A program made the translations under genes and the position numbers. Source: an uncultured Asticcacaulis sp. (GTDB lineage: Bacteria > Pseudomonadota > Alphaproteobacteria > Caulobacterales > Caulobacteraceae). From it: a stretch of DNA of 38,383 nucleotides. Under the pieces are notes generated by a model, which saw nothing but the letters and a program-made list of their open reading frames with translations, was not told where the DNA came from and searched no databases. The stretch spans positions 1-38,383 of the forward strand of contig CAMLIY010000006.1 of assembly GCA_946480125.1 (NCBI GenBank). Direction: 5' to 3'. Below, piece by piece: positions 9,349-38,383 of the stretch (the first letter of the stretch is position 1; each line of letters opens with the position of its first letter).

Positions 9349-10884
9349 GTGGCGGAGCGCGAAGGCCCGAGGTCAATTGCTATTCTGGGCGGCGGCACCG
9401 CAGGATGGGTATGCGCTGCCGTGCTCGCCAAGAAGGCCCGACAGCATGGTGTCTCAGTAACTGTGGTGGACACCACGGAAATACCGACGATTGGAGTCGG
9501 TGAGGCAAGCATTCCGACACTCTATGACATGCTGGCGCATACAGGGTTAAGCGATAAGGACCTTGTCACACACGCCGAAGCCACTTTTAAATACGGAATC
9601 CAGTTTGAAAACTGGTCCCGGCCAGGCGAAAAATACATGCACGGGTTCGGCAATGTCGGCACACCATTCAAAAAAACGGAATTCTTCTCCGCCTGGCTGG
9701 GCGGCGCTAGGTATTTTACCAATCGCGATCTTGGCACGTTTTCAGCAACCGTCAGAGCTGCGGAATTGGACCGGTTCGCACGCGTCGCCCTGAAGCCAGA
9801 AGCCAGCCCGGCCGGCATGTTCCATCCGCTCGCTGAACTCAGTTATGCACTGCACTTCGATGCGTCACTTCTGGCGCGCCTTCTGAAGCAAAACGCTCTC
9901 GAAAACGGCGCTGTTCATCTGTCTCGTCATATTGCCACTGTCGAAACCGATGAACGCGGGATTGCCGGGCTGACCACGCGCGACGGGGAGCATGTTACCG
10001 CCGACCTGTATGTGGACTGTTCGGGCTTTAATGGCCTGCTGGCGCGCCAGGCCCTGGGTGGAGATTTTGAGAACTGGCGCAGGTTCCTGCCCTGTGACAG
10101 TGCCGTTACAGTGCAAACAGCCCGTCACTCCGCACCTCGTCTTTTCACTCGTTCCGTCGCCCATCCCGCAGGCTGGCGCTGGGAAATCCAACTTCAGAGC
10201 CGAACAGGCAACGGTGTCGTCTACGCTTCAGATTTCATGAGCGACCAGACGGCCGTCGACTTACTTCTGCGCGAGGTGGAAGGCGAACCGATCACCGAAC
10301 CCCGTAAAATCGGCTTCGAAACAGGGCGACTCAATGCCCCTTGGAACCAGAATTGCGTCGCTATCGGACTTTCCGCTGGTTTCTTAGAGCCGCTCGAATC
10401 GACCAGCATTCATCTCATCTGCAAATACGCCATGCTCTTGGAAGATATCCTGTACCGCGGCCAAGTTGATGAAGCTGCACAGGGAGCATTCAATGCAGCC
10501 TGGCGCGACGAAACGGAGGAGATTCGTAACTTCCTCATGGCGCACTATGTCGTGAATCAAAGGGACAACGATCCTTTCTGGCGTAATATGCAAAACGTCC
10601 CTCGGCCCGACACCCTTGTTTTGTACCTGAATGAACTGAAAGAAACGGGTTGGATTACCCTGCCCGATCATGCCCTTTTCGGCAACGACAGCTGGTTTCA
10701 GGTATTGATTGGACAGCGCTTCCAACTGGATTACGAGCGGTTTGCTGTGCCGCCTTCGCGCGCGCCAGAACTATTACAGTTTCTCGACAATGTCGCCCGC
10801 GCAGTTGACAACGAAACCCGGAGTATTTCGCGCACACATCAACAGATGCTCGCCGAGCTAAAGGGCCTTACCTTTTCGGCCTAA
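9349..10884 (+). CDS. Tryptophan-halogenase-family FAD-dependent enzyme
   Basis: 511 residues from a GTG at 9349, chosen because GGAGG at 9336-9340 lies eight bases upstream; the GTG at 9334 has no such site. It has the family features: FAD-binding ILGGGTAGW at the N-terminus, GVGEASIPTL, a lysine in ATFKYGIQFENW (about residue 81) that aligns with the catalytic Lys79 of PrnA, and FLEPLESTSIHL. The usual W-x-W-x-I-P signature is altered here to WRWEIQLQ, with the proline replaced. Family members use reduced FAD, oxygen and halide to make hypohalous acid. The copies next to sugar TonB receptors have no established substrate. The gene converges with a second family member; the two stop codons are only eight bases apart. 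Confidence 0.85.
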   Translation: MAEREGPRSIAILGGGTAGWVCAAVLAKKARQHGVSVTVVDTTEIPTIGVGEASIPTLYDMLAHTGLSDKDLVTHAEATFKYGIQFENWSRPGEKYMHGFGNVGTPFKKTEFFSAWLGGARYFTNRDLGTFSATVRAAELDRFARVALKPEASPAGMFHPLAELSYALHFDASLLARLLKQNALENGAVHLSRHIATVETDERGIAGLTTRDGEHVTADLYVDCSGFNGLLARQALGGDFENWRRFLPCDSAVTVQTARHSAPRLFTRSVAHPAGWRWEIQLQSRTGNGVVYASDFMSDQTAVDLLLREVEGEPITEPRKIGFETGRLNAPWNQNCVAIGLSAGFLEPLESTSIHLICKYAMLLEDILYRGQVDEAAQGAFNAAWRDETEEIRNFLMAHYVVNQRDNDPFWRNMQNVPRPDTLVLYLNELKETGWITLPDHALFGNDSWFQVLIGQRFQLDYERFAVPPSRAPELLQFLDNVARAVDNETRSISRTHQQMLAELKGLTFSA

Positions 10885-10892
10885 TTCCGTGT

Positions 10893-12485: not shown

Positions 12486-12554
12486 TAACAAAACTCCCGG
12501 TCTCTCGACGCCGACATTACCGGCAACCAAACTCAAAGTGCCAGGCAAATTAAT

Positions 12555-12592
12555 AAAAAAAAACGCCGCGACCCTCATAGGCGTCGCGGCGT
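12555..12592 (-). terminator. Intrinsic terminator downstream of the large TonB receptor
   Basis: A perfect 10-bp stem (plus-strand ACGCCGCGAC at 12563-12572 pairs with GTCGCGGCGT at 12583-12592) with a 10-base loop is followed on the minus strand by about nine T residues. It is 24 bp after the receptor stop codon and 70 bp before the halogenase start, so it probably limits halogenase expression relative to the receptor. Confidence 0.88.
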
Positions 12593-12615
12593 CAGTCCTC
12601 AAACGTCCGTTTTCT

Positions 12616-15600: not shown

Positions 15601-16386
15601 ATCGGCGTCGATCGCCGGCTGCGCCGCGAATGACTGGCCGTTCTGATCCGTGTAGGCATTCGAGCCGAACGTATTGTAGTTCTCGTTAAAAATATCGTCC
15701 TTACGTACGGTATTGCTTTCGTCATAGATCGTAGCAATTACCCCTAGGCGATCATCAAAAAACTTCTGCGAGAACGTGCCGGAAAACTTGTGGTCGTTTT
15801 TCCCGGAGAGATCGCTATACCGCTGCTGAACAGTCAGGGTGCGGATATTCTTTTTCAATTCAAGCGGCTTGCGTGTCTCGAGGTTAACGACTGCCGCCAG
15901 CGAGCCTTCCTCGTCGTCTGCCGACGGCGTTTTCACAACCTCGACCTTGGACAGGATATCCGCCGAATAGGCAGACAAATCAACACCCTGTGAGAAACCC
16001 GTCGATCCCAGAGACGAGCCATTCAGTGTGACGACGGTTTGATCAGCGTTCGCGCCGCGGACAGAAATGGTTGTGCCCTCACCGTCCCGGGTCGACATGC
16101 TGACGCCGCTGACCCGGTTCAGCGCCTCTGCAATATTTTGATCGGTTGACTTGCCGATATCTTCGGCATTGATCGTATCGACAATCTTACCCGATTTGCG
16201 TTTGTCGTTGACCGATTTACTGATGCTTCCCCGAATACCCGTGACGATAACCACGACCGAGTCATCGGACGACTCAGGCTTTGCCGCCGTGTCGGCGTCT
16301 TGTGCCCGCGCAACCGAGCCAGCTCCCGTTGCCACCAGCGCAATAAGCGCCGTCGAGCACAAAAGTTTCTTGTTGAATCCGCGCAT
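12616..16386 (-). CDS. Large TonB-dependent receptor, carbohydrate-uptake type
   Basis: 1256 residues. A signal peptide (MRGFNKKLLCSTALIALVATGAG..ARAQ) is followed by a TonB-box region (VVVIVTGIR), a plug domain (SKSVNDKRKSGKIVDTINAEDIG, NIAEALNRVSGVSMS, TISVRGANADQTVVTLNG) and a long beta-barrel ending RIFRAGLRMNF with the usual C-terminal Phe. The size and the plug sequence match the oligosaccharide-type receptors common in Caulobacterales and Xanthomonadales, which import sugar oligomers across the outer membrane with energy from TonB-ExbBD. Position in the island suggests galactan oligosaccharides. The start has an AAAAAGGAAAG ribosome binding site. Two ATTGTNNACAAT operators flank a predicted promoter 135-170 bp upstream, and a terminator follows at 12555-12592. 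Confidence 0.92.
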   Translation of the reverse strand: MRGFNKKLLCSTALIALVATGAGSVARAQDADTAAKPESSDDSVVVIVTGIRGSISKSVNDKRKSGKIVDTINAEDIGKSTDQNIAEALNRVSGVSMSTRDGEGTTISVRGANADQTVVTLNGSSLGSTGFSQGVDLSAYSADILSKVEVVKTPSADDEEGSLAAVVNLETRKPLELKKNIRTLTVQQRYSDLSGKNDHKFSGTFSQKFFDDRLGVIATIYDESNTVRKDDIFNENYNTFGSNAYTDQNGQSFAAQPAIDADAAAALAHNRAPAFAGVTGVAASGPYSNIVTGLAPQTSGYSLNHNSNTRRGVDLTVQWRVSDDTDITLYGSFNQQKFRNSMSAVYVANSNFGNEIDGVNQPNLGLGAPFLDRSNAYDSNTIDYGGTVANLGDPVVNPTSNDGLMWTDPVQNWRTLDTGTRTWTKYLDRFSVGGTRSSVNNYSTQNELFNAEIRHRFSDTFYGVFGGSYSKSEQNPEQNIYLQTSGSRTVGPWNLHHVPADLLEPAGYDCTTGACHLVGGTSTPFLGNIVDLRADQNDLWDNIGRTGFNPDDLPSQTLNYIQSSVTKVSDTQQVAFADFGWDTHFAGITKVKFGAKYTSRDKYVDDQSGTPRPGQDLIQAISPFTGETIFIDPSAINLISAALFASGPTNADGFLKGVGVPTDHITDGWQTFDPVAALSAISTGDRDFTLDNTRTRGAKFKNIAAYVMTNFSYLDDRLRGDIGVRYVHTKVDTTGYAGANFAFDAQGQGRLLDPIYLQTLRNSDQSNRCPVLSETPSPIGLGPASQFWTGAGADPTDYYLGNNYNLTAFSERNRQARIDGQGTAAAVPGGVCYDPLLEQGALPNTFLERNLIRYSDLSTEQFGTIGGTALTDHSRASVAAADSYEYDVFLPSLNISYAATDKLITRFSAYKTMSRPPIDDLRAGFRMTEGSVFEGNPIFRTGSTINLYSAQVKPLVAGNLDLAAEWYFRRDSMLSVNLFYKDIKDLIETSDSRWFIGDLRRIASDPSGATVDGLTFTNSAGVTTDLLQTSSLDVNAQPDIANCMPRRIQGESTIAAAGAWMYSGDARLLCDEYNVTRRINTGSATVQGIELQYVQNYTFLPGFLSGLGVAANYTYQQASIKGSDLPITGTPRDSYNLTAFWEKNGNQIRLAYSGNSDSLLQGSFAGGALWQAGRETLDLSAAYQVNKNITFTFDAQNLTDAPVRTYFTSRIIRLPDSTGAMVNFDEGSAYDGAPKTRTIDKYNTGRIFRAGLRMNF

Positions 16387-26355: not shown

Positions 26356-27213
26356 TCAAACGACCGTTACGTCCATTGAAATCTCAAAAGTCTCGCCTGG
26401 CTGCAGGACCTGTAGGCGTTGCGGCCATTCATTAAATGGATCCGGGCGATTGGAAGCGGGCTCGATGCAGAAAAATGTGTCCCCCGGAGGAATGAAAACA
26501 TGAAGATTGCCGCAGTGTGAATCCGCCCGCACACGCACTTTCGGCTCAGCCCCACGCAGGATTACCGCGTCGCCCGCAAATCCGGTGAAAGTGTGGTCTG
26601 TGAGTACAGTCCCGGGTACGGGACAAGCCGTATGCCAATCCTTATCGAAGCCTTCACCCACCCACCGGTCCGGATAGCCGTCGACGCTTCTATGCCAGTA
26701 GCCATCGTAGCAAAATTGGAGCCTTGTCTGCGCCTCAAGTGGAAAGAATGGGTGGAAGCCGAGACCCGCAGGCATCTCACTATCGGATGTGTTTGTTATA
26801 CTCAGTCCGATGCGTAGGCCACGCGGTCCCAACTCAAATATCTGCTCCGCCCGGTACTGCCACGGCCACTCCCCGCCAGGATAGTCGAGATGCAAAACCC
26901 CCACGCCTTCCGCCCATTTGTCGATCTCCCAGGCTGATTGCCAACCCTGACCATGAACGTGATCATTCACTCCGGGCTGGTTAGGGGACAAGCGGATATA
27001 CCGGCCTTCGAATTGAAATTCCGCGTTACGGATCCGGTTGCAAATGGGCAGCATTGGAAAGTAGGCGGCGTCGACAACGTCAGTGATATTCCCGGAAGCT
27101 CGGCGGAATATGGGTTCGTCGTGACAGCTGAGATCAGCGAGACACCCACCGAGCGCAGGTATGCTTGTTAGGCTCATCGGACCGCATGTCAGGGAGAGAA
27201 TTTCCATCGGCAT
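26356..27213 (-). CDS. Aldose 1-epimerase (galactose mutarotase-like)
   Basis: 285 residues from the ATG at 27213, with AAGG six bases upstream. An in-frame extension of 47 codons upstream looks non-coding. The beta-sandwich epimerase family is shown by FPMLPICNRIRNAEFQFEGR, NDHVHGQGWQSAWEI (His as catalytic acid), LGFHPFFPL (second His), and a Glu near the C-terminus in FFCIEPASNRPDPFNEW. It interconverts alpha and beta anomers of aldoses such as galactose and glucose, feeding dehydrogenases that need one anomer. It is the last gene of the minus-strand run lactonase-transporter-epimerase. Confidence 0.87.
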   Translation of the reverse strand: MPMEILSLTCGPMSLTSIPALGGCLADLSCHDEPIFRRASGNITDVVDAAYFPMLPICNRIRNAEFQFEGRYIRLSPNQPGVNDHVHGQGWQSAWEIDKWAEGVGVLHLDYPGGEWPWQYRAEQIFELGPRGLRIGLSITNTSDSEMPAGLGFHPFFPLEAQTRLQFCYDGYWHRSVDGYPDRWVGEGFDKDWHTACPVPGTVLTDHTFTGFAGDAVILRGAEPKVRVRADSHCGNLHVFIPPGDTFFCIEPASNRPDPFNEWPQRLQVLQPGETFEISMDVTVV

Positions 27214-27350
27214 TTCACACCTTGATTCTACGGAAAAAAGGATCCAAGCGCTGTTTAATCGCGCCGTGTACTGCCTTAAATCGACTCGAGCGCCGGCAGC
27301 CATCGACGTGCGGCGGGGCGGCCATCTCGCGGTGATATGGCAGTGGCGCT

Positions 27351-27368
27351 CCATATGAGGTCATATGG
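27351..27368. repeat. Perfect palindrome over the MFS stop codon
   Basis: CCATATGA and TCATATGG are 8-bp perfect inverted arms separated by GG, overlapping the stop of the transporter gene (27361-27363). There is no T-tract, so it is not a classical terminator. It could be an mRNA-processing hairpin or an operator for the epimerase gene 138 bp downstream. Confidence 0.45.
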
Positions 27369-28617
27369 CGAGCTCTTCGACTTTCCCGACCATGAAGATG
27401 TAGGCACAGACGCCCACCAGCGCGATCACGCCCATATAAATGAGCGCGGGTGTGAAATCGCCCCCCTCGATCAAAAGCCCGATAATGATGGGTGTGAGGA
27501 TTGCCGATGTGCCACCGATCAGGTTGAAAACACCACCTATCGCACCGACCGCAGACTTGGGCGCGATCAGGGAGACAAATACCCAATTTATCGACGCCAG
27601 TCCGTTGCCGAAAAACGCGACAGACAAAAGCACGATTGCCATTACGTCATTGCGCGTAAAATTCGCGAACAAAATCACGCTCGAGAGAAGCATACCCACG
27701 ATAATTGGGCCCTTGCGGGCGATGCCGACCGCAATCCCGCGCCGGACCATAAAATCAGAGCCCAGACCGGACAACAGCACACCGAAAAAGGCCGCCAGGA
27801 AGGGAATTGCCGACAATATGCCGGAAGCGGCAACGTTCAAACCGCGGTAGTGAAGCAAATAGGTTGGGAACCAGGTCAGAAAGAAGATGGTTGTCGTGCC
27901 GAGACAGAATTGCCCCAGGTAGATACCCCAGAGCGTCTTGTGTCTGATCGCGAAATTCAGCGTTTGCAGCCAGGTCAGTCGAACCGCCACCTCACTTCGC
28001 AAGGTCGCTTCGGATGTCTTTGACACCTCCAGCGCCTCGGCCCGGCCTCGATCCCGATAAATCAACATCCATACCCCGGCCCATACAGCGCCCACGATAC
28101 CGGATCCGATAAACAGCTCCCGCCAGCCAAAAAAGGATTGAATGGCGATCAACAGCGGCGATAAAAAAGCCAGACCAATAAACTGTCCGGACGTATAAAA
28201 AGCAATCGCACCGGCCCGCTCCTCACGCGCAAACCAACTCGTTACGATCTTGTTGTTGAGCGGATAACCCGGCGCTTCAAACATGCCGATCAGCAACCTG
28301 CAGATAACTAGCCCCGCTACACCCCACACAAATCCCTGAAAGAATGTCACAACCGACCAGGCGAGGATTAACGCGCCGTAGAGAAAGCGGGGGCGGGTCC
28401 TGTCCGCGAGCAATCCGCCCGGAATTTGCAAACCGGTGTAGCTCCACGCGAAGGCAGAAAATATCAAGCCCATTTCCGTGGGCTGAAGCTTGAAATCTAG
28501 GGCAATACCCACTGCTGCAACGGACAGGTTGCTGCGATCCAGATAGTTAATCACAACAGTGATGAAGAGAGATATCAGAACGACGAAACGATATTTTGGG
28601 TTTGCCTTATCCGTCAT
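27361..28617 (-). CDS. MFS anion:cation symporter-type sugar-acid transporter
   Basis: 418 residues with about twelve membrane helices. Helix 1 (VVLISLFITVVINYLDRSNLSVA) with the NYLDR motif, SAFAWSYTGLQIPGGLLADRTRPR, and RLLIGMFEAPGYPLNNKIVTSWFAREER are diagnostic of the ACS family that includes hexuronate (ExuT), galactarate/glucarate and galactonate (DgoT) carriers. It probably brings sugar acids or uronate-like products through the inner membrane. The ATG at 28617 has only a weak ribosome binding site; upstream in-frame TTG codons are alternatives. It lies between a periplasmic lactonase and a mutarotase. That suggests that part of the sugar is oxidised in the periplasm and imported as the acid. 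Confidence 0.87.
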   Translation of the reverse strand: MTDKANPKYRFVVLISLFITVVINYLDRSNLSVAAVGIALDFKLQPTEMGLIFSAFAWSYTGLQIPGGLLADRTRPRFLYGALILAWSVVTFFQGFVWGVAGLVICRLLIGMFEAPGYPLNNKIVTSWFAREERAGAIAFYTSGQFIGLAFLSPLLIAIQSFFGWRELFIGSGIVGAVWAGVWMLIYRDRGRAEALEVSKTSEATLRSEVAVRLTWLQTLNFAIRHKTLWGIYLGQFCLGTTTIFFLTWFPTYLLHYRGLNVAASGILSAIPFLAAFFGVLLSGLGSDFMVRRGIAVGIARKGPIIVGMLLSSVILFANFTRNDVMAIVLLSVAFFGNGLASINWVFVSLIAPKSAVGAIGGVFNLIGGTSAILTPIIIGLLIEGGDFTPALIYMGVIALVGVCAYIFMVGKVEELAI

Positions 28618-28705
28618 TGGCAATAAATCCAAAACTTCTCGGAAATAATTGCCAGCCGGGTCGCACAGGTCTCTTTGCAGCCGACGCAGGAGTTAACGCT
28701 TGTTT

Positions 28706-29782
28706 TCATAGACCGTCACCCGACATCCGGGTGCGAACGCACATCAAGCTGTCGTCCGCTGTAATGAAAAGCGTTTTACCGTCCTCACCAAAGCAGCAAT
28801 TGCCCGTTGGCCTCCCGGTGTAAATTCTGCCAATCGCATTGCCTTCCGGCGAGATCGCATATACCCCGCCGGGCCCGGCGGCGAAAAGAGTTCCATCCCG
28901 GGCCACCGCCATGCCATCTGGCATTCCCGGATTATCAGCCGAAATGTAGGGGCTGAAATCAAACCAATCGACGCCCTGCGAAACATGACCATCCGCATCG
29001 ACGGCGAACTTGCGGATAATGGGTGCCTTTTGATCAGATTGCGACACGTAAAGAGAGCGCTCATCGGGTGATAGCGCAATGCCGTTTGGCAACGTCATGC
29101 TGCGATCAATCACAGACAACGCTCCGTCAGGTCGCATGCAGAACACGCCGCTAAAATCCAGCTCTCTGGCTTCGGACTTGTCGCCCGCCTTTAACCCTGC
29201 CGTGGGATCTGTAAAGTAGATGATGCCGGACTTCGACACAGCCAGGTCGTTAGGGCTGTTGAATTTCCGCCCTTTGAAAGAATTGACGAGAGTGCGTCTG
29301 ACGCCAGACGTGGTATCTATGGTTTGCAGCGACCGGCTGTCCTGATCGCATACAATCAAAAGCTTCTTTTCGGACAGATAGAACAATCCATTTGTCGCGC
29401 GTTGCACGTCAGGATCCGCCGGCGTTCCCGACCCGGCGGGATCCAAATAAACAGCTAGCCCTGCGCCTCTGGTCCACGTGTAGATCCGGTTCCGAGCCAC
29501 GTCGGAAAAATAGAGGGTGTCCTTGTCACTATCCCATGTCGGCCCCTCGGGCCAATCCAATGCCCCAGAGAGCATGTCTATGCCTTCCGACGGCAGGACG
29601 TACTTGTCGAACTCCGGCGAGAACCGCTCGACGCGTAGGCGATTTTCCGGCGTTTCCGACGCCTTGGCGAAACGGGGAATACATGCACCGAGCGATGCAG
29701 CCATGCTCATCATCGCCATATGACGTCGTGTAAGGCCAAACGGAATCGCGCGTTGGCCTGCTGGCCGATGAAAGCTGGACAT
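28706..29782 (-). CDS. SMP-30-family lactonase, exported (Tat-like, possible lipoprotein)
   Basis: 358 residues. The N-terminus has a twin-arginine segment (LTRRHMAMMSMAAS) followed by LGAC, which fits a lipoprotein cleavage box, so the enzyme is probably exported folded and anchored in the periplasm. The six-bladed propeller follows, with candidate metal ligands Glu in DWPEGPTWD, Asn in FNSPNDLAVS and Asp in GMPDGMAVARDG. It would hydrolyse a sugar lactone to the acid for the transporter encoded 88 bp downstream. The ATG has AGGGA six bases upstream. An operator-like site and a leader hairpin lie in front. It is a distant paralogue of the cytosolic lactonase at 479-1369. Confidence 0.85.
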   Translation of the reverse strand: MSSFHRPAGQRAIPFGLTRRHMAMMSMAASLGACIPRFAKASETPENRLRVERFSPEFDKYVLPSEGIDMLSGALDWPEGPTWDSDKDTLYFSDVARNRIYTWTRGAGLAVYLDPAGSGTPADPDVQRATNGLFYLSEKKLLIVCDQDSRSLQTIDTTSGVRRTLVNSFKGRKFNSPNDLAVSKSGIIYFTDPTAGLKAGDKSEARELDFSGVFCMRPDGALSVIDRSMTLPNGIALSPDERSLYVSQSDQKAPIIRKFAVDADGHVSQGVDWFDFSPYISADNPGMPDGMAVARDGTLFAAGPGGVYAISPEGNAIGRIYTGRPTGNCCFGEDGKTLFITADDSLMCVRTRMSGDGL

Positions 29783-29809
29783 GGTGTATCCCTGTAGTCT
29801 TTCGGCTCG

Positions 29810-29830
29810 CCCTGAACGGAACGTTCAGGG
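29810..29830 (-). promoter_or_regulatory. Leader hairpin of the exported lactonase gene
   Basis: CCCTGAACG and CGTTCAGGG form a perfect 9-bp stem with a 3-base loop, 28 bp before the start codon and inside the predicted 5' leader. On the minus strand it is not followed by T residues, so an mRNA stabiliser, attenuator element or protein-binding site is likelier than a terminator. Confidence 0.45.
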
Positions 29831-29885
29831 TGCAAAGACAATTTTTTTGATTGACGCCCGATCTTACTAAGACGAGACGGTGCAT

Positions 29886-29897
29886 ATTGTCAACATT
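29886..29897 (-). promoter_or_regulatory. Operator-like site before the exported lactonase run
   Basis: ATTGTCAACATT has one mismatch to ATTGTNNACAAT. On the minus strand it contains TTGACA, with TTAGTA 17 bases further on, giving a plausible promoter for the gene starting at 29782. It is the last copy of the motif seen in the window. Confidence 0.5.
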
Positions 29898-29983
29898 TAA
29901 CAATTTGACATAATGATCGGTCAAAGCCGGCCGCCTGACCTCCTCATCCAAGCGCCTGTTCCGAATTTTACCATAGCGAATAA

Positions 29984-30008
29984 GAGTCCACCGGGAACGG
30001 GTGGACTC
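29984..30008 (-). terminator. Probable intrinsic terminator
   Basis: GAGTCCACC (29984-29992) and GGTGGACTC (30000-30008) form a perfect 9-bp stem with a 7-base loop. On the minus strand it is followed by TTATT, a short T-rich tail. It lies ten bases after the stop of a coding-like remnant on the same strand and separates the sugar island from the lasso region. Confidence 0.5.
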
Positions 30009-30017
30009 GGGATCAGT

Positions 30018-30143
30018 TCAGACAGCAACGGCGACCTCCTCAAGCCATTTTCGGAGGGTATCGGCGGCTAATTGCAGTCCACGCTTATTGGTGTCATTCT
30101 GGCCGGAGTTTGCAAGCTGGCGATGGCGCTTCTCAGAGGGCGG
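30018..30143 (-). pseudogene. Possible 3' remnant of a lost minus-strand gene
   Basis: The minus strand can be read as a 41-residue open stretch ending KRGLQLAADTLRKWLEEVAVAV before a stop, directly followed by a terminator-like hairpin. There is no start codon in frame and a stop lies just upstream, so it is not an intact gene. The protein-like composition and the terminator suggest the tail of a gene whose front was removed by rearrangement. No family was recognised, and chance is possible. Confidence 0.25.
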
Positions 30144-30145
30144 TC

Positions 30146-30475
30146 ATGACACCCGACGACGATTTAAGCTCTTTAGGCAGAGACAATGAAGACATTGTCT
30201 CTGCGACTGAAGGCCTTTTCCTGGAAATTGCTTCGAACGCCGATGCACGATTGAAGGAAGCTGTCACCGTGATGAACGGCAGAAGGCGCCTCGTCCGCCT
30301 CTATGAGGCCGCCTTGATACCCGATCGGGAAGAGGAACTGGCGGCGCTCAAGGCCTGTTGGAACGCGCGCGACATACCGCGACTCCGCGACCTGATATTC
30401 GCCTACTACAAGCGCCGGCACGATTTGGCGCCGCAGATCGTTGCGCTCATGAACGCGCCGCAATCGCCGCAATGA
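30146..30475 (+). CDS. GntR-type effector-domain-only protein (no DNA-binding domain)
   Basis: 109 residues from the ATG at 30146, with AGAGGG five bases upstream. It aligns along almost its whole length with the C-terminal half of the GntR regulator at 30602-31246. Here TEGLFLEIA corresponds to TETLFKAIA there, and ELAALKACWNARDIPRLRDLIFAYYKRRHDLAPQIVAL to ELQPLKEAWKAGDLRDLRGLVADYHQRRIARLPEVIAL. The winged-helix domain is absent, and no remnant of it was found upstream in this frame. It is either a decayed duplicate or a functional effector/dimerisation subunit that could form inactive heterodimers with its neighbour. The good ribosome binding site and intact frame favour expression. Confidence 0.6.
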   Translation: MTPDDDLSSLGRDNEDIVSATEGLFLEIASNADARLKEAVTVMNGRRRLVRLYEAALIPDREEELAALKACWNARDIPRLRDLIFAYYKRRHDLAPQIVALMNAPQSPQ

Positions 30476-30497
30476 CGCGCCTTTGATCGCGAGGGCA

Positions 30498-30538
30498 TTG
30501 CACGTTTTAGGCGAATAGCATAACAATTGTCGCCTAAA
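30498..30538 (+). promoter_or_regulatory. Promoter framed by an inverted repeat before the lasso-locus GntR gene
   Basis: TTTAGGCGA (30506-30514) and TCGCCTAAA (30530-30538) are perfect 9-bp inverted arms with a 15-bp spacer. Within and beside them, TTGCAC (30498-30503) and TAACAA (30521-30526), 17 bases apart, resemble a vegetative promoter. A repressor bound to the arms would cover this promoter, suggesting autoregulation by the gene product that starts at 30602. Confidence 0.5.
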
Positions 30539-30601
30539 TCTTCGCCTGCCAAATGTCCGGGCCTCATACCAAGACGTCTGGTGTTTCAAAGTCCACCGTC
30601 G

Positions 30602-31246
30602 ATGTCAGATAGTCCCTCCCTCATTGAAGATATCTACACGGGTCTGAAAAACGACCTGTTGTCCGGATCGCACCTGCCCGGCGAGCGCGTCGATATTTCC
30701 GAAATCCTGAAACGCTTTCCGGCCAGCAAAACACCGATCCTGCTCGCCTTGAACCGCCTGGTCGGAGAAGGGCTGGTCGAGGCACGGCCGCACGATGGCT
30801 ACTACATCCCTCGGCTCACGACCGACTCGCTCCGTGAACTTTACGAATGCGATATCGAGATACTGACTCTGGTCCTGGACAGGCAGGTAACGTCAAGGAA
30901 CGAGCCCGCGCCTCTACCCGCCGTCAATTTCACGGACACTGATGGCGTCACCGATACAGAGACCTTGTTCAAGGCCATCGCCAATCTAAGCCGAAACCGC
31001 GAATACGCCCGGATTGTCTCCGGACTCAATGATCGCTTGCGGCCTCTGCGGCGGCTCAAGGCCAGCACAACCTTTAATCTGCCGGCCGAATTACAACCGC
31101 TCAAAGAGGCCTGGAAAGCGGGAGATCTCCGAGACCTGAGAGGTCTGGTCGCAGACTATCATCAGCGGCGCATTGCAAGGCTTCCCGAGGTCATTGCGCT
31201 TGCCTACACGGCGCCGGTTATGCGTCCTTCAATGGGCTCGGCTTAA
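30602..31246 (+). CDS. GntR-family regulator of the lasso-peptide locus
   Basis: 214 residues from the ATG at 30602. An in-frame stretch of 25 codons upstream overlaps the promoter and inverted repeat and is probably untranslated. The N-terminal winged helix shows SLIEDIYTGLKNDLLSGSHLPGERVDISEILKRFPASKTPILLALNRLVGEGLVEARPHDGYYI in order, a clear GntR pattern. The C-terminal half is all-helical and not typical of FadR; it is shared with the 109-residue protein upstream. Its position 177 bp before the lasso precursor and in the same direction makes it the likely controller of that operon. No ECF sigma/anti-sigma pair, common in other isopeptidase-type lasso loci, is present in the window. Confidence 0.8.
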   Translation: MSDSPSLIEDIYTGLKNDLLSGSHLPGERVDISEILKRFPASKTPILLALNRLVGEGLVEARPHDGYYIPRLTTDSLRELYECDIEILTLVLDRQVTSRNEPAPLPAVNFTDTDGVTDTETLFKAIANLSRNREYARIVSGLNDRLRPLRRLKASTTFNLPAELQPLKEAWKAGDLRDLRGLVADYHQRRIARLPEVIALAYTAPVMRPSMGSA

Positions 31247-31278
31247 GAAAGACCGCGATCGCGTTACGAAATACTCAA

Positions 31279-31331
31279 AAAATATTCCGATTATTTTCCG
31301 ATTATCCTTTTGAAAATATTCGCTTTATATT
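31279..31331 (+). promoter_or_regulatory. AT-rich promoter region of the lasso operon with direct repeats
   Basis: TTCCGATTAT is repeated at 31285-31294 and 31296-31305, 11 bp apart, so both copies face the same side of the helix. AAAATATTC is repeated at 31279-31287 and 31313-31321, 34 bp apart. A TATATT at 31326-31331 may be a -10. These repeats in an otherwise GC-richer region are likely regulator contact points before the precursor gene. The promoter itself is not sharply defined. Confidence 0.4.
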
Positions 31332-31423
31332 CAAAGTATCCCCTCTAAAATTCTCCTCTTGGTTGATATCATCCCGACGTCGCGAATTGTCGCGGCGTTT
31401 TCACCACTCCACAGGAGGATACT

Positions 31424-31564
31424 ATGGAAAAGACCGAAACCCACGAAGACCTGATCGACCTGGGCGCCGCCAGCGTCGAAACTAAGGGCCTGAATTCGTT
31501 CAATCGCGACGGCCCGCTCGGCCAGACGAAGGACATCGTTCCGGGCATGATCTTCGAAGACTGA
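31424..31564 (+). CDS. Lasso peptide precursor (A)
   Basis: 46 codons with a consensus AGGAGG box at 31413-31418, five bases before the ATG. The leader (residues 1-21) ends LIDLGAASVETK, with Thr20 at the penultimate position required by lasso proteases. The predicted core starts at Gly22. Core residues 1-8 are GLNSFNRD, so Gly1 can form an isopeptide bond with Asp8, giving an 8-residue ring. The 17-residue tail starts GPLGQT and ends GMIFED, making a 25-residue core, long for the class. It would be cut and cyclised by the products of the next two genes in the cytosol. Candidate steric plugs in the tail are Gln13, Lys15 and the C-terminal Met21-Ile22-Phe23 cluster. I do not recognise this core among lasso peptides I know, such as the astexins, caulosegnins, caulonodins and benenodins. 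Confidence 0.93.
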   Translation: MEKTETHEDLIDLGAASVETKGLNSFNRDGPLGQTKDIVPGMIFED

Positions 31565-31574
31565 CTTCGATTGT

Positions 31575-31598
31575 CCGCATGCAGCCAACTGCATGCGG
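31575..31598 (+). promoter_or_regulatory. Intergenic hairpin between lasso A and B genes
   Basis: CCGCATGCAG and CTGCATGCGG form a perfect 10-bp stem with a CCAA loop, 10 bp after the precursor stop and 22 bp before the B start. There is no T-tract. Such stems in lasso operons are thought to stabilise or partly terminate the precursor message so that far more A than B-C is made. Confidence 0.75.
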
Positions 31599-31620
31599 CT
31601 TCCGCTCGGGGTGACATCAG

Positions 31621-32292
31621 ATGCTCTACGAACTTAAGAAAAATTTGCACTTTTGCTACGCCGAAGGGCGCATTGTCTTCCTCGACCTCGAGCGGGATCG
31701 TTATTTTTCCCTGCCTTCGAGATTAGAAGCCGCGTTCAAAGGTTGGATTGGAAAGGAACCAAGCGCGCCGTGGGACGCCGAAGCGCTGGCAATCCTTTGT
31801 GATAAGGACGTACTGACCAAGACAGAGAAAGCCGAGGTGCCCAACTTTGAGGCCACCACTAACCCGGTTCGGCCGGCGTCAAGTCTGATTGAAAACGGAG
31901 AATTAAGGGCTGATTTTTTGACTGTCGCCGAGGCAATCTCGGAACGCCTGCATTGCCGAAGACTTTTGAAGACTCGGCCCCTGCTGGCCGTCCTTTCTTC
32001 GATAGCAGCAAGACCATTCCAATTTCATACTGTTGAAAGTCCCGATCCCGCTATCCTAGCCGCAGCCTCAGCATTCGAGGCCAGCAACCGGTGGTTAGCC
32101 GCCCACGATCAATGCCTGGAAAGATCTGTCGCCCTCGTCCGCTTTCTGACCAAGCGCCGACACCATTCTCAACTCATCCTTGGCGTAACAATGACACCGT
32201 TCAAGGCACATGCCTGGGTTCAAAGGGGGACTTTGGTGTTGAATGACACATTGGCAAAGGTCTCGAACTATACGCCCATATTGGTGATCTGA
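31621..32292 (+). CDS. Lasso peptide leader-binding (RRE) and protease fusion (B)
   Basis: 223 residues. The first about 75 residues resemble the PqqD-like RiPP recognition element (ENCODED order: LHFCYAEGRIVFLDLERDRYFSL, then a helical segment), which binds the leader. The C-terminal part is a transglutaminase-like cysteine protease with Cys165 in HDQCLERSVAL, His197 in FKAHAWV and Asp209 in LVLND as the catalytic triad. It removes the leader after Lys21 of the precursor. Proteobacterial lasso loci typically have this single fused B protein, rather than the split B1/B2 of Gram-positives. A GGGGTGA box precedes the ATG. One base separates its stop from the cyclase start, so the two are coupled. 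Confidence 0.9.
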   Translation: MLYELKKNLHFCYAEGRIVFLDLERDRYFSLPSRLEAAFKGWIGKEPSAPWDAEALAILCDKDVLTKTEKAEVPNFEATTNPVRPASSLIENGELRADFLTVAEAISERLHCRRLLKTRPLLAVLSSIAARPFQFHTVESPDPAILAAASAFEASNRWLAAHDQCLERSVALVRFLTKRRHHSQLILGVTMTPFKAHAWVQRGTLVLNDTLAKVSNYTPILVI

Positions 32293-32293
32293 G

Positions 32294-34111
32294 ATGGCAA
32301 TTCGCTACCTGTGCGAAGTAAGCAAAAATCCAGATCGCGCCGTTAAATTGTTCGGCCTTCATTTATGCCGTGATCTCATCGTTGTAACGGAGAGACCTCA
32401 ATTCACCCTGATGACTGACAGCGTCAGAACTGCCGCCCTCTTTCCTGGTCAAAATGGCGCAATCATCGGCCATTTGTTTAACAAGGCAGCCACACCCCTT
32501 CACCTGACGAAGGTAGACCCGCCAACTGCACGAAGGGCATTGAGCACTTCCGGACAATCACTGCTCGAAACGCATTGGGGCGGGTACGTGGCATTTCTCG
32601 AGGAACCGGACGGAGGTGGTATCAGCGTCGTACGCGACCCTTCTGGGGCAATGCCATGCTACTATATTGATCTCGCAGATCGCGTGGTGTTTGCGTCAGA
32701 CGTAACTACTCTGCATGAGGCCGGATATCTCGTACCCCAAATAGACGACACCTATCTGCTTCATCACCTGATCTCGTACGATTTGCGTACGCCCGACACT
32801 GGCCTGAAAGGCGTCAGGGAATTGGTGGCCGGCCATCGCCTCAGGACAGGCCGGTCTGGACTTTTGGTCGAGTCAGTTTGGACGCCGTGGGATCATGTCA
32901 GTTGCCAACCCACTTCCAGTGATCAACTGGCTGAGCAGCTTTTCGAAACGATCAAAACGACGCTCGGTGCCTGGAACAGTGTCTTCCTTAGGCCATTGCT
33001 GGGCGTGTCCGGCGGTCTCGATTCCTCAATCATTGCCTGTGCCCTACGTGCCAATCAATCGAACCTCATATGTTACACAATGGCTACCGACGACGCAGAG
33101 GGTGACGAGCGCGCATATGCCCGGCTTCTCACCAACGCACTCTCGGTACCTCTTGAGGAAAGGTTTTACCGCTTGGACGAAGTCGACTTTTTCAAATCGA
33201 CTGCGGCTCATCTGCCAAGGCCCCTGCTACATGCTTTTGGACAAAGCGACTTCAAAGCAAAAATGTCTATCAGCTCGGCGCATGGCGCCGACGCGTTCTT
33301 TACAGGAATCGGTGGCGACAACGTGTTTTGCAGTCTGACGTCGACCCTACCGGTACTTGACCGGTTGCGAGCTGAGGGCTTCGGGATGAGCACCTGGTCC
33401 ACACTGAACGACGTGTGCCGCATTGCCGGCTGTTCTGTCTGGCAGGCGTTCGACAATCTTCTGCATCAGTCGCGGAAAAAACCGTACCGGTATCAGTGGC
33501 GGCGCGATTTCACCTACCTGCCGAACGAATTGACAGGTTTATACTGCGCGCCTACCCATCCGTGGCTGGATGCCCCGCTTGGAGCGTTGCCGGGTAAATC
33601 CCTGCACATTGCAATGATGGCCCGCATCCAAGGCACCATTGATGGGTATGAGAGGCGAAACATGCCGCCACTCATCAACCCCCTCCTTTCCCAACCGATT
33701 GTCGAAGCGTGTCTTGCGATCCCGACTTGGCGATGGCTGGAACGGGGCCGTAACCGCTCGGTCGCCCGGCAGGCGTTTAGCAAGCACCTTCCAGCCGAGA
33801 TCATCAATCGGCGATCGAAGGGAGGGCCTTCTCGCTTTGCGAATTCTGTCATCAATCACAACAGAGCAAAGCTGGCTGACAGACTGGAGGCTGGATATCT
33901 TGCCAGATCAGGTCTGATTGATGTGCAGGCGGTGCTGCGCCAGCTTCGATCTGAACATCCACTTCGAGATATGGACTTCGATCGCTTCGCCACCATGGGT
34001 GAAATTGAGGCTTGGGTTTCACACTGGACGAACCTTGCCTCTGTTTCAGCGTCTCAGCCGCCCGAACCACATTCGCATTCATCCCGCAGTGTGCGCCACC
34101 GCATGTATTGA
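32294..34111 (+). CDS. Lasso cyclase, asparagine synthetase-like (C)
   Basis: 605 residues, homologous to class B asparagine synthetase. The N-terminal half is a glutaminase-like domain (VVRDPSGAMPCYYI, VFASDV) that lacks the catalytic Cys at position 2, as in other lasso cyclases. The C-terminal half has the ATP-binding PP-loop SGGLDSS at about 239-245 and the segments GIGGDNVFCS and RRSKGGPSRF. It adenylates the side-chain carboxylate of core Asp8 and joins it to the Gly1 amine, closing the ring round the tail. Its last 58 bases overlap tail-to-tail with the isopeptidase gene on the other strand. No ABC exporter gene follows, as is common for isopeptidase-type lasso loci. Confidence 0.92.
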   Translation: MAIRYLCEVSKNPDRAVKLFGLHLCRDLIVVTERPQFTLMTDSVRTAALFPGQNGAIIGHLFNKAATPLHLTKVDPPTARRALSTSGQSLLETHWGGYVAFLEEPDGGGISVVRDPSGAMPCYYIDLADRVVFASDVTTLHEAGYLVPQIDDTYLLHHLISYDLRTPDTGLKGVRELVAGHRLRTGRSGLLVESVWTPWDHVSCQPTSSDQLAEQLFETIKTTLGAWNSVFLRPLLGVSGGLDSSIIACALRANQSNLICYTMATDDAEGDERAYARLLTNALSVPLEERFYRLDEVDFFKSTAAHLPRPLLHAFGQSDFKAKMSISSAHGADAFFTGIGGDNVFCSLTSTLPVLDRLRAEGFGMSTWSTLNDVCRIAGCSVWQAFDNLLHQSRKKPYRYQWRRDFTYLPNELTGLYCAPTHPWLDAPLGALPGKSLHIAMMARIQGTIDGYERRNMPPLINPLLSQPIVEACLAIPTWRWLERGRNRSVARQAFSKHLPAEIINRRSKGGPSRFANSVINHNRAKLADRLEAGYLARSGLIDVQAVLRQLRSEHPLRDMDFDRFATMGEIEAWVSHWTNLASVSASQPPEPHSHSSRSVRHRMY

Positions 34112-36183
34112 TCCTTTTTCTTTGGGTCAGGGTCTTCGATTCCCATCAGCCAAAAGCTGAACCAGTCCACGGACCTGAGGTACACCGCACGACGATGGAT
34201 GGGTTGCCACTTCACATGGAACTCGTCCGGAAATACGTACATTTCCAGCGGATTTCTGCGCTCCCTTAAAGCCTGGTATCCTTCAAGCGCCCCGAGATAT
34301 TCGGTGTCGGCTGCCTGTATAAGGAGAGGCGGAAGTCCCTTGGCTGCGGTTCTGGCGAAAGAATAATTTTGCCAGAACGCGGCGTCAGGCTCAGATGCGG
34401 TTGGGTGTCCACTTTCCGCGAACGATCTCGCCAGTACCGGACCACCCAGGAATGCCATCACTGCCGGGTCGTCACAACAAGTGCTGATAGCCGCTGCAGA
34501 AAACAGAGAGCTGTTTAAAAGAGCAAACTGGACTGTTGTGGCACCGTCGCTCAGGCCGGTTATGCCGATGTGACGCTTGTCAATGGTTCCGGTCGCGATA
34601 GCCGCTTTGACCCCTTCTTCCAATGCGGATTGTATGCTTTGCCGCCCCGCCCGATCCCTGGAGCTCGACCGTGCACTCTTAGTGGCTTTCGCTGACGGAA
34701 AATTGGCAAGGGAGGCCGGATGATTGAACCTCAGGACTGCGAAGCCACGAGACGCATACAGTTGGATCGGATATTCGTCGCCGGTCCCTCCCCTGAGAAA
34801 GCCGCGAGAGCGATATTGCACGATGATCAACGGATGAGTTTGGCCAGGTTTATGATCAGGAGGCAGGACCAGGTCGCCGAACGTCTCGATGCCGCGATCA
34901 TTTTTCCATTGCAGTCTTTCGGTCTTGCCGAGCGCGATACTCCGGAATTCTGGGTTGGGGTCCCATATCGGATGTACGCTTCCGTCTCCAATCTCCACGG
35001 AAACCAGTTCTCGCGGCTGGGTCGGCGCCTCATGACCACAGACCAATCGGCTGCTGCTCATCTGGCAGCCAATAAATACGTCGGCCGAGGACAAAAACCT
35101 CTCCGGTTCTACACCGTCTGGCAACCACTTATAAAACCCCTGCCGACTTGAATCCCAGCCGTATCCCCAGCCCTCCAGGGTTGCAAAGATCAGCGTCGAA
35201 CCGTCTCCTATCCACCACATGCCTGTGACGACGGAAGACCGCGGCAGGACCGCGCGGCGCTTGGAGCCATCCGCAGCAAGTGAATAGACCGCCTTCGCTG
35301 AATGGGCATCCGAGGGATCTGTCGGCGCGATCCACGCTGCCCGGCCTGTCTGGTTCGCCTCAATGACTTTTCCGGTCAAGGCCGGACCGGGCGCACCTGA
35401 GTTGAACAGGAGGGTGCTCTCGGTAGGCGTGGCCTCGCGCTCGTCGCCATCAGCGACGCCAATTGACAGGAAGACAGGATCGACCTTTTCCCGCGGTATG
35501 GGCCGATTGCTATTCGCAGGAATAAAACGGTCATCGAACAAGAAGCCGCCTTTGCCCTCGTGTTCAATCCCATCATAGGCAGATTGCAGGCCGGGGCGCC
35601 CCGAGATGATCAAGCGCGCGCCGTCTGGCGACCAGGCGACATCTTCCACATCAAAGGCCATATGGGTAACGGCTCGCGCCGGCGCGCCATCTAGTCCAAC
35701 CAGCCATGCCTGCGTTAAGCCGCCTTCTCTACGCAGGTAGGCCAGTGATTTGCCGTCAGGTGACCATTTCGGGATGACAATGATCGGCGCGCCCGACGGT
35801 GTGAACGCAGGAAAGCCAAGAACTTGCCTAGTCATAAGCATATAATCGCCGCCGGCGTCCAGAAGAACAGGCTGTTCCGATCCGGCTACTGCCGCGACGA
35901 TGATACCAAGGCAATAGCTGTTATTCGACAGGTCCGCTTTCCGCACCTGCACCGCCACATGCTTGCCGTCCGGCGACACCGACAGGACCTCTGTGGCAAC
36001 ATTTGTCGGGTCGAGCGGACCGATGTCTCGCAGTTGAACGAGGTCGTCGGCTGTGATTGACGGGCCAAATCTTTCTGGTGAAGACGGGAGCAACAGGTCG
36101 CGACACGTCTCTGCCCGCCCGGATGCGGGCAGAGACGCCAACGCGCAAATTAGCCCTAGCGCGTACAGGCTGGGGGTGCGCAT
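34054..36183 (-). CDS. Lasso peptide isopeptidase (S9-like serine hydrolase)
   Basis: 709 residues with a signal peptide (LYALGLICALASLPASGRA). A beta-propeller (about 40-420, with repeated SPDGK motifs) is followed by an alpha/beta-hydrolase domain carrying Ser545 in GLSDGATT, Asp626 in QAADTEY and His656 in PDEFHVKW as the triad. Prolyl-oligopeptidase-like enzymes next to lasso genes (AtxE-type) specifically open the isopeptide ring and linearise the peptide. The size and layout agree with that group. The start lies four bases after the receptor stop, so the two form one operon. Its end overlaps the cyclase gene by 58 bp in the opposite direction. A general S9 dipeptidyl peptidase would be the alternative without this context. 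Confidence 0.88.
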   Translation of the reverse strand: MRTPSLYALGLICALASLPASGRAETCRDLLLPSSPERFGPSITADDLVQLRDIGPLDPTNVATEVLSVSPDGKHVAVQVRKADLSNNSYCLGIIVAAVAGSEQPVLLDAGGDYMLMTRQVLGFPAFTPSGAPIIVIPKWSPDGKSLAYLRREGGLTQAWLVGLDGAPARAVTHMAFDVEDVAWSPDGARLIISGRPGLQSAYDGIEHEGKGGFLFDDRFIPANSNRPIPREKVDPVFLSIGVADGDEREATPTESTLLFNSGAPGPALTGKVIEANQTGRAAWIAPTDPSDAHSAKAVYSLAADGSKRRAVLPRSSVVTGMWWIGDGSTLIFATLEGWGYGWDSSRQGFYKWLPDGVEPERFLSSADVFIGCQMSSSRLVCGHEAPTQPRELVSVEIGDGSVHPIWDPNPEFRSIALGKTERLQWKNDRGIETFGDLVLPPDHKPGQTHPLIIVQYRSRGFLRGGTGDEYPIQLYASRGFAVLRFNHPASLANFPSAKATKSARSSSRDRAGRQSIQSALEEGVKAAIATGTIDKRHIGITGLSDGATTVQFALLNSSLFSAAAISTCCDDPAVMAFLGGPVLARSFAESGHPTASEPDAAFWQNYSFARTAAKGLPPLLIQAADTEYLGALEGYQALRERRNPLEMYVFPDEFHVKWQPIHRRAVYLRSVDWFSFWLMGIEDPDPKKKDQYMRWRTLRDECECGSGG

Positions 36184-36187
36184 TGTC

Positions 36188-38383
36188 TTACCAGGCCTTC
36201 GACACGGTTATGCTGACGAAGCGGCCAATGATTGATGCATTTGTGCTGTCGAAGTGCGGTCCCATATTCGAGATCGGCGACGGCGTGTAGGGTGGAGCCT
36301 TGTCGAACAGGTTAGACGCGGACAACACGATCCTCAGATCTGAAAATGCGTTGGCACCCTCGCCAAACCTGTACGCAACTGTCGCGTCGACTGTCGTCCA
36401 TGGATCAACCTTAAAATTAGGTGTGACCAGGGTGTCGGCCTCGTCGGCTATATAGTTCACGACGGCTGTGGCACTGAACCCGCCTCGCCTCCAACTGGCC
36501 CCGCCGCGCGCTTTGAACTTGGGCGGAGAAAAGATAGTGCCGGACAATTCGATGCTGGGCAGGGTCGGAATGGTTTGCTGCTTCAGAGTCAGCCAGGACG
36601 CATTCGCGAAGGTGTCGATGTCGCCGAAATCGAGGCGGAAAGCCTGGCGGTAGGATAGATCTACACCCTTAATTGTCTGCGCGGTCGCGTTGGTGTTCTG
36701 GTTATAGATTGCCGCCACGACATCCGCCGGATCGTAATCGGTACTCGCGAAATTATTGAATTCCGTCGAGCGGGCAAACAGATCGGCTTTGGTCGCGTCA
36801 GATGGAGATAGCTCAACGAATGGCGAAAACCGAGGGTCGCTGAGCGCGCCGGTAAACGGGTTGACCGGCTGAACAATCCGACCCTCATAGTCGACGCTAA
36901 AATATGTCACGGACCATTTCAAATCACGGCTCGGCGTAAAGTCGGCACCGAGCGTCCACGAAGTTGCCTTCTCAGGTTTGAGGTCCGGGTTACCGCCTTC
37001 AATATCGAGGACCGTGCCGGTATCCGGACCACCAACATACGAGGCGTCGAACAGATAAAGCTGCGCCCGGTTATGGAGCTGGAGGAAGGTCGGCGCCTTG
37101 AAGGACTTGCCCCACGACCCACGAATCGCCACACCATCGATAGGAACATAGCGCAATCCAACCTTCGGGTTCGTGCTGCTGCCGAAATCGCTATATTTTT
37201 CGGCTCGCCCCGCCACGCTAAGCGTAAGCTCCTGCAATCCAGCCCGTTCAGTAGACGGCTCGACAAGCGGCACAAGCGTCTCGAAATACAAGTAATCTAC
37301 ACTTCGTGAGTATTCCGCCGAGCTCACAAATGTTTCGCTCCGACGCCCTCCCCCCAGTGCAACCCGTACCGGTCCTGTTGGCAAGCTGAACGCAGTCCCG
37401 CCAGCCGTTACCTCGACGTCTTCGAGGTGATTACGCATCAGCGCCCCCTGGGTCAGGGAGTAGGCAGGGATGGCAACAAAGGTAGAGTTTCGGCTTCCGC
37501 CAGATAGCGCGGTCAAATCGAGCTTCCAGTCTTTCATCAGGCCGACTTCCACCGAAAGCGCAAAGCTATAGGCTGGTGTCGTTACAGTGGTGAAAACCTG
37601 GGGGGCCGCAGCAGAGGTCTTCGCAATCCGTGTGGCTTCCCGGTTGCTGACGAGCGCGTCCAGAGTGATGTTCACATTCTCGAACGGCGCCCAGCCGGCG
37701 CTAACGAACGCCGACTGGCGCTTTTGGGGCTGCACCAGCATGTTTTCGGGCGATCCAATGCCGACGATGTCTCGATCCGCCCAGGTAATGGCATCCTGGT
37801 TGGTCGCTTCCGCATTGAACAGGATGTTTGCCTTGTTGGAAGCCGCACCAGTGAGAAGACTAAATGTCCGCTCCGTGCCGCCACCTTGCGTTGACGTTGC
37901 TACGCGAGCCGAGACCTCGGTGCCTGTATAGTTCTTGCGCAAGACGAAGTTGACGACGCCGCCGACCGCGTCGGCGCCATAGAGTGCCGACGCGCCGTCC
38001 GGCAGGACTTCCACGCGTTGGACGGCGCTCAAGGGTATACCTGATATATCAGAGCTCTGGAAAGCACTGTCGGACGGCAACCGGTGACCGTTGAGGAGAA
38101 CGAGTGTCGCGTCCGAACCGAGCCCGCGCAAATTGACTGTCGAAGCATTCGTGACGTTATTGTTGTTCGGATTGACGAAGGACGGCGCTCCCGAAACGAC
38201 GCCTGGGTTCTGCCCGCCGGAAAAATTCTCGGGTAAGCTACGGACCAAATCACCGGTTTGCGAATAGCCGGACTGTTCGATATCGGTCCGGCTCAGAGCA
38301 TGGATTGGAGACGTCGGGTTGCCGCCACGAATGTGCGAGCCGATGACGATGACCTCAGTTGGCTGTTCAGCCACCGCTGCGGG
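36188..38383 (-). CDS. TonB-dependent receptor of the lasso locus (5' end beyond window)
   Basis: About 731 residues are visible. The frame is open to the window edge and reads PAAVAEQPTEVIVIGSHIRGG. A GTG at 38374 is inside what looks like a signal-peptide cleavage region (AAVA-EQ), so the true start lies to the right. A TonB box (TEVIVIGS), a plug (DLVRSLPENFSGG, STVNLRGLGSDATLVLLNGHRLP, VEVLPDGASALYGADAVGGVVNFVLR) and a beta-barrel ending FVSITVSKAW with a terminal aromatic are present. Receptors paired with lasso isopeptidases are thought to import the mature lasso peptide, or its complex, into the periplasm, where the ring is opened. It is a different receptor type from the 1256-residue sugar receptor and half its size. 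Confidence 0.9.
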   Translation of the reverse strand, partial: PAAVAEQPTEVIVIGSHIRGGNPTSPIHALSRTDIEQSGYSQTGDLVRSLPENFSGGQNPGVVSGAPSFVNPNNNNVTNASTVNLRGLGSDATLVLLNGHRLPSDSAFQSSDISGIPLSAVQRVEVLPDGASALYGADAVGGVVNFVLRKNYTGTEVSARVATSTQGGGTERTFSLLTGAASNKANILFNAEATNQDAITWADRDIVGIGSPENMLVQPQKRQSAFVSAGWAPFENVNITLDALVSNREATRIAKTSAAAPQVFTTVTTPAYSFALSVEVGLMKDWKLDLTALSGGSRNSTFVAIPAYSLTQGALMRNHLEDVEVTAGGTAFSLPTGPVRVALGGGRRSETFVSSAEYSRSVDYLYFETLVPLVEPSTERAGLQELTLSVAGRAEKYSDFGSSTNPKVGLRYVPIDGVAIRGSWGKSFKAPTFLQLHNRAQLYLFDASYVGGPDTGTVLDIEGGNPDLKPEKATSWTLGADFTPSRDLKWSVTYFSVDYEGRIVQPVNPFTGALSDPRFSPFVELSPSDATKADLFARSTEFNNFASTDYDPADVVAAIYNQNTNATAQTIKGVDLSYRQAFRLDFGDIDTFANASWLTLKQQTIPTLPSIELSGTIFSPPKFKARGGASWRRGGFSATAVVNYIADEADTLVTPNFKVDPWTTVDATVAYRFGEGANAFSDLRIVLSASNLFDKAPPYTPSPISNMGPHFDSTNASIIGRFVSITVSKAW

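Follow-up and report, generated by a model that had tools for sequence, protein, structure and literature searches.

The lasso peptide clusters with an isopeptidase that were known at the time of an earlier review carry a GntR gene ahead of the precursor gene and a TonB transporter gene by the isopeptidase gene; astexin-1 excepted, the peptides known from them are without antimicrobial activity, and their role for the producer has been called enigmatic (PMC9266682). The isopeptidases tested hydrolyse their cognate threaded peptides only, and the astexin-3 ring is one residue larger than that of the benenodin-1 chimera (PMC9266682). Benenodin-1 has an 8-residue ring and was isolated minus five tail residues; its ring sits between Glu14 and Gln15, and Lys17 is the stopper in a second conformer (PMC13352647). 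The precursor of sphingocin from Sphingomonas BPH was reported to match a benenodin family lasso peptide exactly; a transposon in the sphingocin B gene abolished phenanthrene use (PMC11006600). These papers, as well as PMC7549694, are cited here from excerpts. We analysed a stretch of 38,383 nucleotides from an uncultured Asticcacaulis sp. (assembly GCA_946480125.1, contig CAMLIY010000006.1), called the window in the following, in which a short precursor gene (A) and the genes B, C and E form what is very probably a cluster of the same type. The features of this cluster are:

30602-31246, forward strand: GntR-type transcriptional regulator, encoded immediately ahead of the precursor (PF00392, 8.5e-11)
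31413-31419, forward strand: ribosome-binding site AGGAGGA, upstream of the precursor start
31424-31564, forward strand: lasso precursor of 46 residues, translated as MEKTETHEDLIDLGAASVETK/GLNSFNRDGPLGQTKDIVPGMIFED and followed by a stop
31424-31486, forward strand: leader peptide MEKTETHEDLIDLGAASVETK, 21 amino acids, Thr at -2 (translation, closest relatives)
31487-31561, forward strand: core peptide GLNSFNRDGPLGQTKDIVPGMIFED, 25 amino acids (translation, core comparison; stop codon at 31562-31564)
31487-31510, forward strand: predicted 8-residue macrolactam ring Gly1-Asp8 (Asp8 codon at 31508-31510)
31621-32292, forward strand: B protein, a leader-binding RRE-like domain (residues ~1-72) and a papain-like leader protease (~98-223; Cys165, His197)
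32294-34111, forward strand: C protein, an ATP-dependent macrolactam cyclase of the asparagine-synthetase type (PF00733, 7.3e-25; SGGLDSS motif)
34054-36183, reverse strand: E protein, an AtxE2-type lasso peptide isopeptidase with Ser545, Glu628 and His656 (NF033523, 730.7 bits, cut-off 400)
36188-38374, reverse strand: TonB-dependent outer-membrane receptor (PF00593, 6.7e-36; PF07715, 3.4e-17), its N terminus probably past the window edge

We are highly confident in assigning this locus to the isopeptidase-type lasso peptide clusters of the benenodin family. Maturation, re-uptake and linearisation of its product are proposed. This reading is based on the family models for A, B and E, which all score above their cut-offs, and on the leader, which together with Gly1 is identical to benenodin-1 at 20 of 22 positions. 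It is further supported by AtxE2 as best PDB match of E, by the retained catalytic residues and by a gene order as in the relatives. The benenodin-1 sequence used here comes from an A. benevestitus locus (L003, 14701-14877) that encodes the precursor MEKIETHEDLIDLGAASSETK/GVGFGRPDSILTQEQAKPMGLDRD. We take it to be benenodin-1, since Thr12, Gln13, Glu14, Gln15, Ala16 and Lys17 fit the published numbering (PMC13352647). The precursor, the RRE-like domain and protease, the cyclase, the isopeptidase with its catalytic residues, the receptor and their order are all apparent from the sequence.

The precursor passes the cut-offs of NCBIfam NF033522, "benenodin family lasso peptide" (E = 7e-13, 48.2 bits, cut-off 33), and Pfam PF24178, "Subterisin" (E = 2.7e-12, 46.9 bits, cut-off 27). 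These matches and four homologous precursors argue against a chance reading frame. The residues expected of a proteobacterial lasso precursor are in place, namely T20 (at -2), G22 (core G1) and D29 (core D8). The core GLNSFNRDGPLGQTKDIVPGMIFED comprises the ring GLNSFNRD and 17 residues past Asp8, with FED at its C terminus. Closure is predicted at Asp8, because it is the sole acidic residue of core positions 7-9 and because 8 is the commonest ring size. The full-length lasso would have a monoisotopic mass of 2701.317 Da ([M+2H]2+ 1351.666), that is the linear core minus 18.011. A tail-trimmed form with residues 1-19, which would correspond to benenodin-1 as isolated, is predicted at 2009.033 Da ([M+2H]2+ 1005.524).

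Homologues of the precursor were searched among ~5.8 billion proteins with a method that requires shared 5-residue words, and matches with E <= 0.1 were kept. Four were found (P0002-P0005). P0002, from another public assembly (source JGI), has a core identical to that of the window and two substitutions in the leader. The other three, among them P0003, which its source assigns to Asticcacaulis sp. and names a benenodin family lasso peptide, share the leader and have very different cores. All four retain Thr at -2 and Gly1, have an acid at position 8 or 9 and end in Asp, and the leader is almost invariant. No significant match to the precursor was found in the PDB, and a plasmid search returned one record, a Sphingopyxis benenodin-family precursor with E = 0.2. 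Of 25 genomes from the same genus as A. benevestitus, four had a precursor match, covering at most the first 36 residues; thus, the core of the window was not met in these genomes.

The B frame is open, its NCBIfam family model scores above the cut-off, and its Cys and His are conserved in the alignment. Its N-terminal half matches lasso B1 RREs in complex with leader peptides, consistent with an RRE-like fold. C is likewise open and falls under the NCBIfam cyclase cut-offs; it was assigned via PF00733 and SGGLDSS, which is invariant in all four aligned sequences. A C-terminal extension of ~25 residues in C is absent from three aligned relatives, and the convergent C and E genes share their last 58 bases (34054-34111). 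In E, residues S545, E628 and H656 are invariant in 18/18 aligned isopeptidases, and the match to AtxE2 (5TXC) reaches 512 bits over residues 37-700. An isopeptidase at 100% identity is listed from ENA (P0006), possibly the source record of the window itself.

An earlier note on this DNA, made from the letters alone, had proposed a lasso precursor at 31424-31564. It had also described the ring GLNSFNRD closed at Asp8 with a 17-residue tail ending in FED, a cleavage between Lys21 and Gly22, and intact processing genes. The two family models bear out the precursor, and the translation gives ring and tail as described. The predicted cleavage site agrees with Thr at -2 and Gly1 in the four closest relatives, and B and C are open frames of the expected families with their conserved residues. 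The isopeptidase and the TonB receptor, which the note did not mention, matter for any product test.

In analogy to the described systems, the RRE-like domain of B would bind the leader and B would cleave after Lys21. C would then activate Asp8 with ATP and link it to the Gly1 amino group round the pre-threaded tail, giving the 8-residue ring. The mature lasso would be released and probably re-imported via the adjacent TonB receptor, after which isopeptidase E probably opens it to the linear peptide. The cluster is probably under the control of the GntR regulator. A lasso peptide of the antimicrobial, ABC-exporter kind, similar to microcin J25, would have the A, B and C gene types in common with this locus. 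Among the 10 neighbouring proteins scanned with Pfam and NCBIfam (26359-38374) there is no ABC exporter; the cluster has an isopeptidase and a TonB receptor instead, and peptides from isopeptidase clusters other than astexin-1 have no antimicrobial activity (PMC9266682). We therefore consider this explanation quite improbable. Nothing was found in favour of a decaying, non-functional cluster, which is extremely improbable given open frames, catalytic residues in place and the identical core in P0002 with its two leader substitutions.

The isopeptidase-type reading was compared with relatives. A genome scan with the E sequence alone as query returned no relative, whereas an alignment of 18 isopeptidases did find loci in public genomes, of which the best 80 of 162 were used. 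Genes were tallied with tblastn (E of 1e-3, adjacency of the matches not required). B was found in 73 of these 80 loci, C in 77 and the TonB receptor in 80; wherever all three were found (73 loci), B and C are oriented opposite to E and the receptor, as they are in the window. A GntR-like match was present in 55/80 loci, some of these matches non-adjacent to the cluster. The window itself has the layout of an isopeptidase cluster, with GntR before A and the TonB receptor beside E. A sigma/anti-sigma pair, a further mark of such clusters, would lie downstream of the isopeptidase gene, on the side where the window ends inside the receptor gene. A search with the benenodin model in 299 genomes of the A. 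benevestitus family gave matches at E 0.001 in 33 genomes, 25 of them above the cut-off. Regions of up to 20 kb around the matches were taken from 20 of the 33 genomes. B was found in all 20 regions, C and a TonB receptor in 19 each and the isopeptidase E in 17 (E of 1e-5); the E matches are often just 26-33% identical.

For a census of precursors, leader-model matches from both sets were cut by one rule and P0002-P0005 were added, which gave 113 precursor genes with 101 distinct cores, the one of the window included; two of 111 leader-model matches could not be cut. From 59 of the 80 E-anchored loci a precursor was parsed. Some loci of the A. benevestitus family (L084, L085, L088, L090, L092-L094, L098, L100-L103) have two or three precursors in tandem with differing cores, unlike the window with its single precursor.

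Where several ring sizes were possible, 8 was preferred, a rule that affects the 14 ambiguous cores among the 101. With this rule the ring has 8 residues in 90 cores, 9 in nine and 7 in two. Position 1 is Gly in 100/101, and 95/101 have a C-terminal Asp or Glu. Between 9 and 17 residues follow the ring, and the maximum of 17 is reached by the window and one Brevundimonas precursor (2/101), with benenodin-1 next at 16. A basic residue immediately before the ring closer occurs in four cores, including the window (Arg7) and P0004. Asp8, an acidic end and at least 15 residues after the ring are combined in 22/101 cores. By this census, ring and acidic end are typical of the family, and tail length and Arg7 are at the edge of its range. 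The features had been called unusual together. This does not stand for the 8-residue ring, the acidic end or the combination of Asp8, acidic end and long tail; a tail of 17 residues and a basic residue preceding the ring closer are indeed uncommon.

Met21, Ile22 and Phe23 had been put forward as a possible plug. In this alternative the peptide would be an exceptional lasso whose loop is very long (residues 9 to ~20) and which has scarcely any free tail. The three residues do form a bulky run, the tail is the joint longest of the 101 cores, and large loops are known, such as the 20-residue loop of achromonodin-1 (PMC13352647). The segment, however, belongs to the conserved C-terminal end of the family, and isolated benenodin-1 lacks its last five residues and has the ring between residues 14 and 15 (PMC13352647). 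A Met-Ile-Phe plug is thus doubtful, and we regard the exceptional lasso as unlikely. From the position relative to benenodin-1 we infer that the plug is probably near residues 14-17 (Thr14, Lys15, Asp16, Ile17) and that Met-Ile-Phe is part of a dispensable end. A gapless alignment of the two tails has 3 identities (P = 0.10) and was rejected as proof of the plug position, which is an inference only.

The end of the core itself is a feature of the family:

31544-31561, forward strand: C-terminal acidic tag GMIFED, one residue longer than the family end G-[LI]-x-[DE]-[DE] (core comparison)

Gly is found at -5 in 92/101 cores, in 90 of which the next residue is L, I, V or M, and at -6 in five cores, the window among them. 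In a first set, the 59 cores found near isopeptidase genes with a leader-only model (window excluded), Gly at -5 and an acidic end occur in 55/59 each, which indicates that the tag was not created by the choice of search. In a second set of 38 further cores, biased because its model includes the core, the counts are 35/38 and 36/38. Among the 56 cores of the first set with an eight-residue ring, the variable positions of ring and loop have an entropy of 2.3-3.9 bits, compared with 0.5 at -5 and 1.1 at -1. The last five core residues average ~1.4 bits, similar to the leader.

As a tentative explanation, somewhat less likely than its opposite, the acidic C-terminal end might be no peculiarity of this peptide but an address tag that isopeptidase-type lasso peptides conserve and can shed; it is this very piece that isolated benenodin-1 lacks. 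The tag might be required for threading by C, for export or for the TonB receptor to recognise the peptide, and be trimmed later. Two loci with a TonB receptor and no E match in the fetched 20-kb region (L127 and L130, precursors L096 and L099) have cores ending in GISED; these two cases give no more than a hint of a tag that goes with the receptor and not with the isopeptidase. Several points weigh against the tag. Nine of 101 cores are without Gly at -5. A second A. benevestitus cluster (L004), the one inspected by eye among the 21 E-anchored loci that gave no parsed precursor, has at 14399-14608 a precursor-like frame, outside the census, whose leader has diverged and whose last residues are PMLSND; this frame ends in Asp and has no Gly at -5, and therefore speaks against a universal tag. 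Truncated lasso tails have moreover been ascribed to carboxypeptidases of the expression host (PMC13352647), so that the tail loss of benenodin-1 may be an artefact.

The tag is discussed in no paper text searched for it; most subscription papers are outside this search, and it may well be in print. The excerpt of PMC11006600 contains GLSDD solely as part of its own printed peptide. That ring and loop of isopeptidase-type lasso peptides vary freely and the acidic end is kept may matter more than the new sequence, and a conserved end beside a conserved TonB receptor offers a direct and cheap test of the uptake idea.

Upstream of the precursor and between A and B, two further elements were found:

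31324-31351, forward strand: weak promoter-like site by consensus only (9/12 matches, 16-nucleotide spacer; 1 found versus 0.3 expected in shuffles)
31575-31598, forward strand: perfect 10-bp hairpin with a 4-nucleotide loop between A and B (fold z of -2.23 for the surrounding 67 nucleotides)

For astexin-1, the hairpin that is removed reportedly also sits between A and B. A perfect stem of at least 8 bp within 80 bases past the stop was found in 41/98 precursors (window counted), compared to 1.4% of mononucleotide shuffles. A table in PMC7549694 gives hairpin removal as a strategy for astexin-1 expression. The A-B hairpin may set expression of A above that of B and C.

In the leader DNA (31424-31489), 15 of the 19 codons for the same residue are identical between the window and benenodin-1 (L003). 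In five neighbouring genes this share is only 38% (408/1068; binomial P = 0.0004 for the leader excess). Over 103 precursors aligned in the second leader half (window counted), codon identity is 56% (497/886), and much of the leader likeness is therefore codon bias common to precursor genes. Selection at the nucleotide level on the leader DNA is not claimed.

One more gene lies upstream of the GntR gene:

30146-30475, forward strand: 109-amino-acid protein that resembles the C-terminal half of GntR regulators (tblastn)

It has no Pfam or NCBIfam match. A tblastn match was present in 9/80 loci, in seven of them inside the GntR match and in two (L001, L004) upstream of GntR. At 480-16386 the window encodes a sulfatase, a sulfatase-modifying enzyme, an agarase-CBM protein, a GH3 protein, two tryptophan-halogenase-like flavoproteins and a large TonB receptor, genes that look suited to sulfated polysaccharide breakdown. 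Sugar-acid and transport genes seem to continue to ~29800, judging from the reading frames and, from 26359 on, from Pfam matches. A link of the lasso cluster to these carbohydrate genes was rejected: the nearest ones, SGL and MFS (27361-29782), match 0 and 1 of the 80 loci in tblastn, and the adjacency was, for these nearest genes, treated as coincidence.

The string GLNSFNRD is in no paper text searched (supplements were outside the search), and the exact peptide looks new. The claim of newness holds to this extent only, as the identical core is present in the public assembly of P0002. The family is well known, the supposedly unusual features look mostly normal for it, and the peptide is one more sequence in a large family.

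Among the described systems, benenodin-1 shares with the window the 20 of 22 identical positions of leader and Gly1, an 8-residue ring closed at Asp8, an Arg in the ring near the closer, a hairpin after A, and isopeptidase, TonB receptor and GntR genes. Both cores end in Asp, with 16 residues after the ring in benenodin-1 and one more in the window. The cores are otherwise nearly unrelated (3/16 aligned tail positions identical), and B, C and E are 32%, 42% and 43% identical. Sphingocin resembles the peptide of the window in Gly1, Asp8 and the acidic end of its 22-residue core, and in a cluster with B, C, a divergent E and a TonB receptor; its tail is three residues shorter and has the standard GLSDD end (PMC11006600). 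Pandonodin and achromonodin-1 are unusually long lasso peptides like that of the window, yet longer (33 and 30 residues), and pandonodin differs by a disulfide inside the tail (PMC13352647). AtxE2, from the astexin-2/-3 cluster, belongs to the same isopeptidase family as E.
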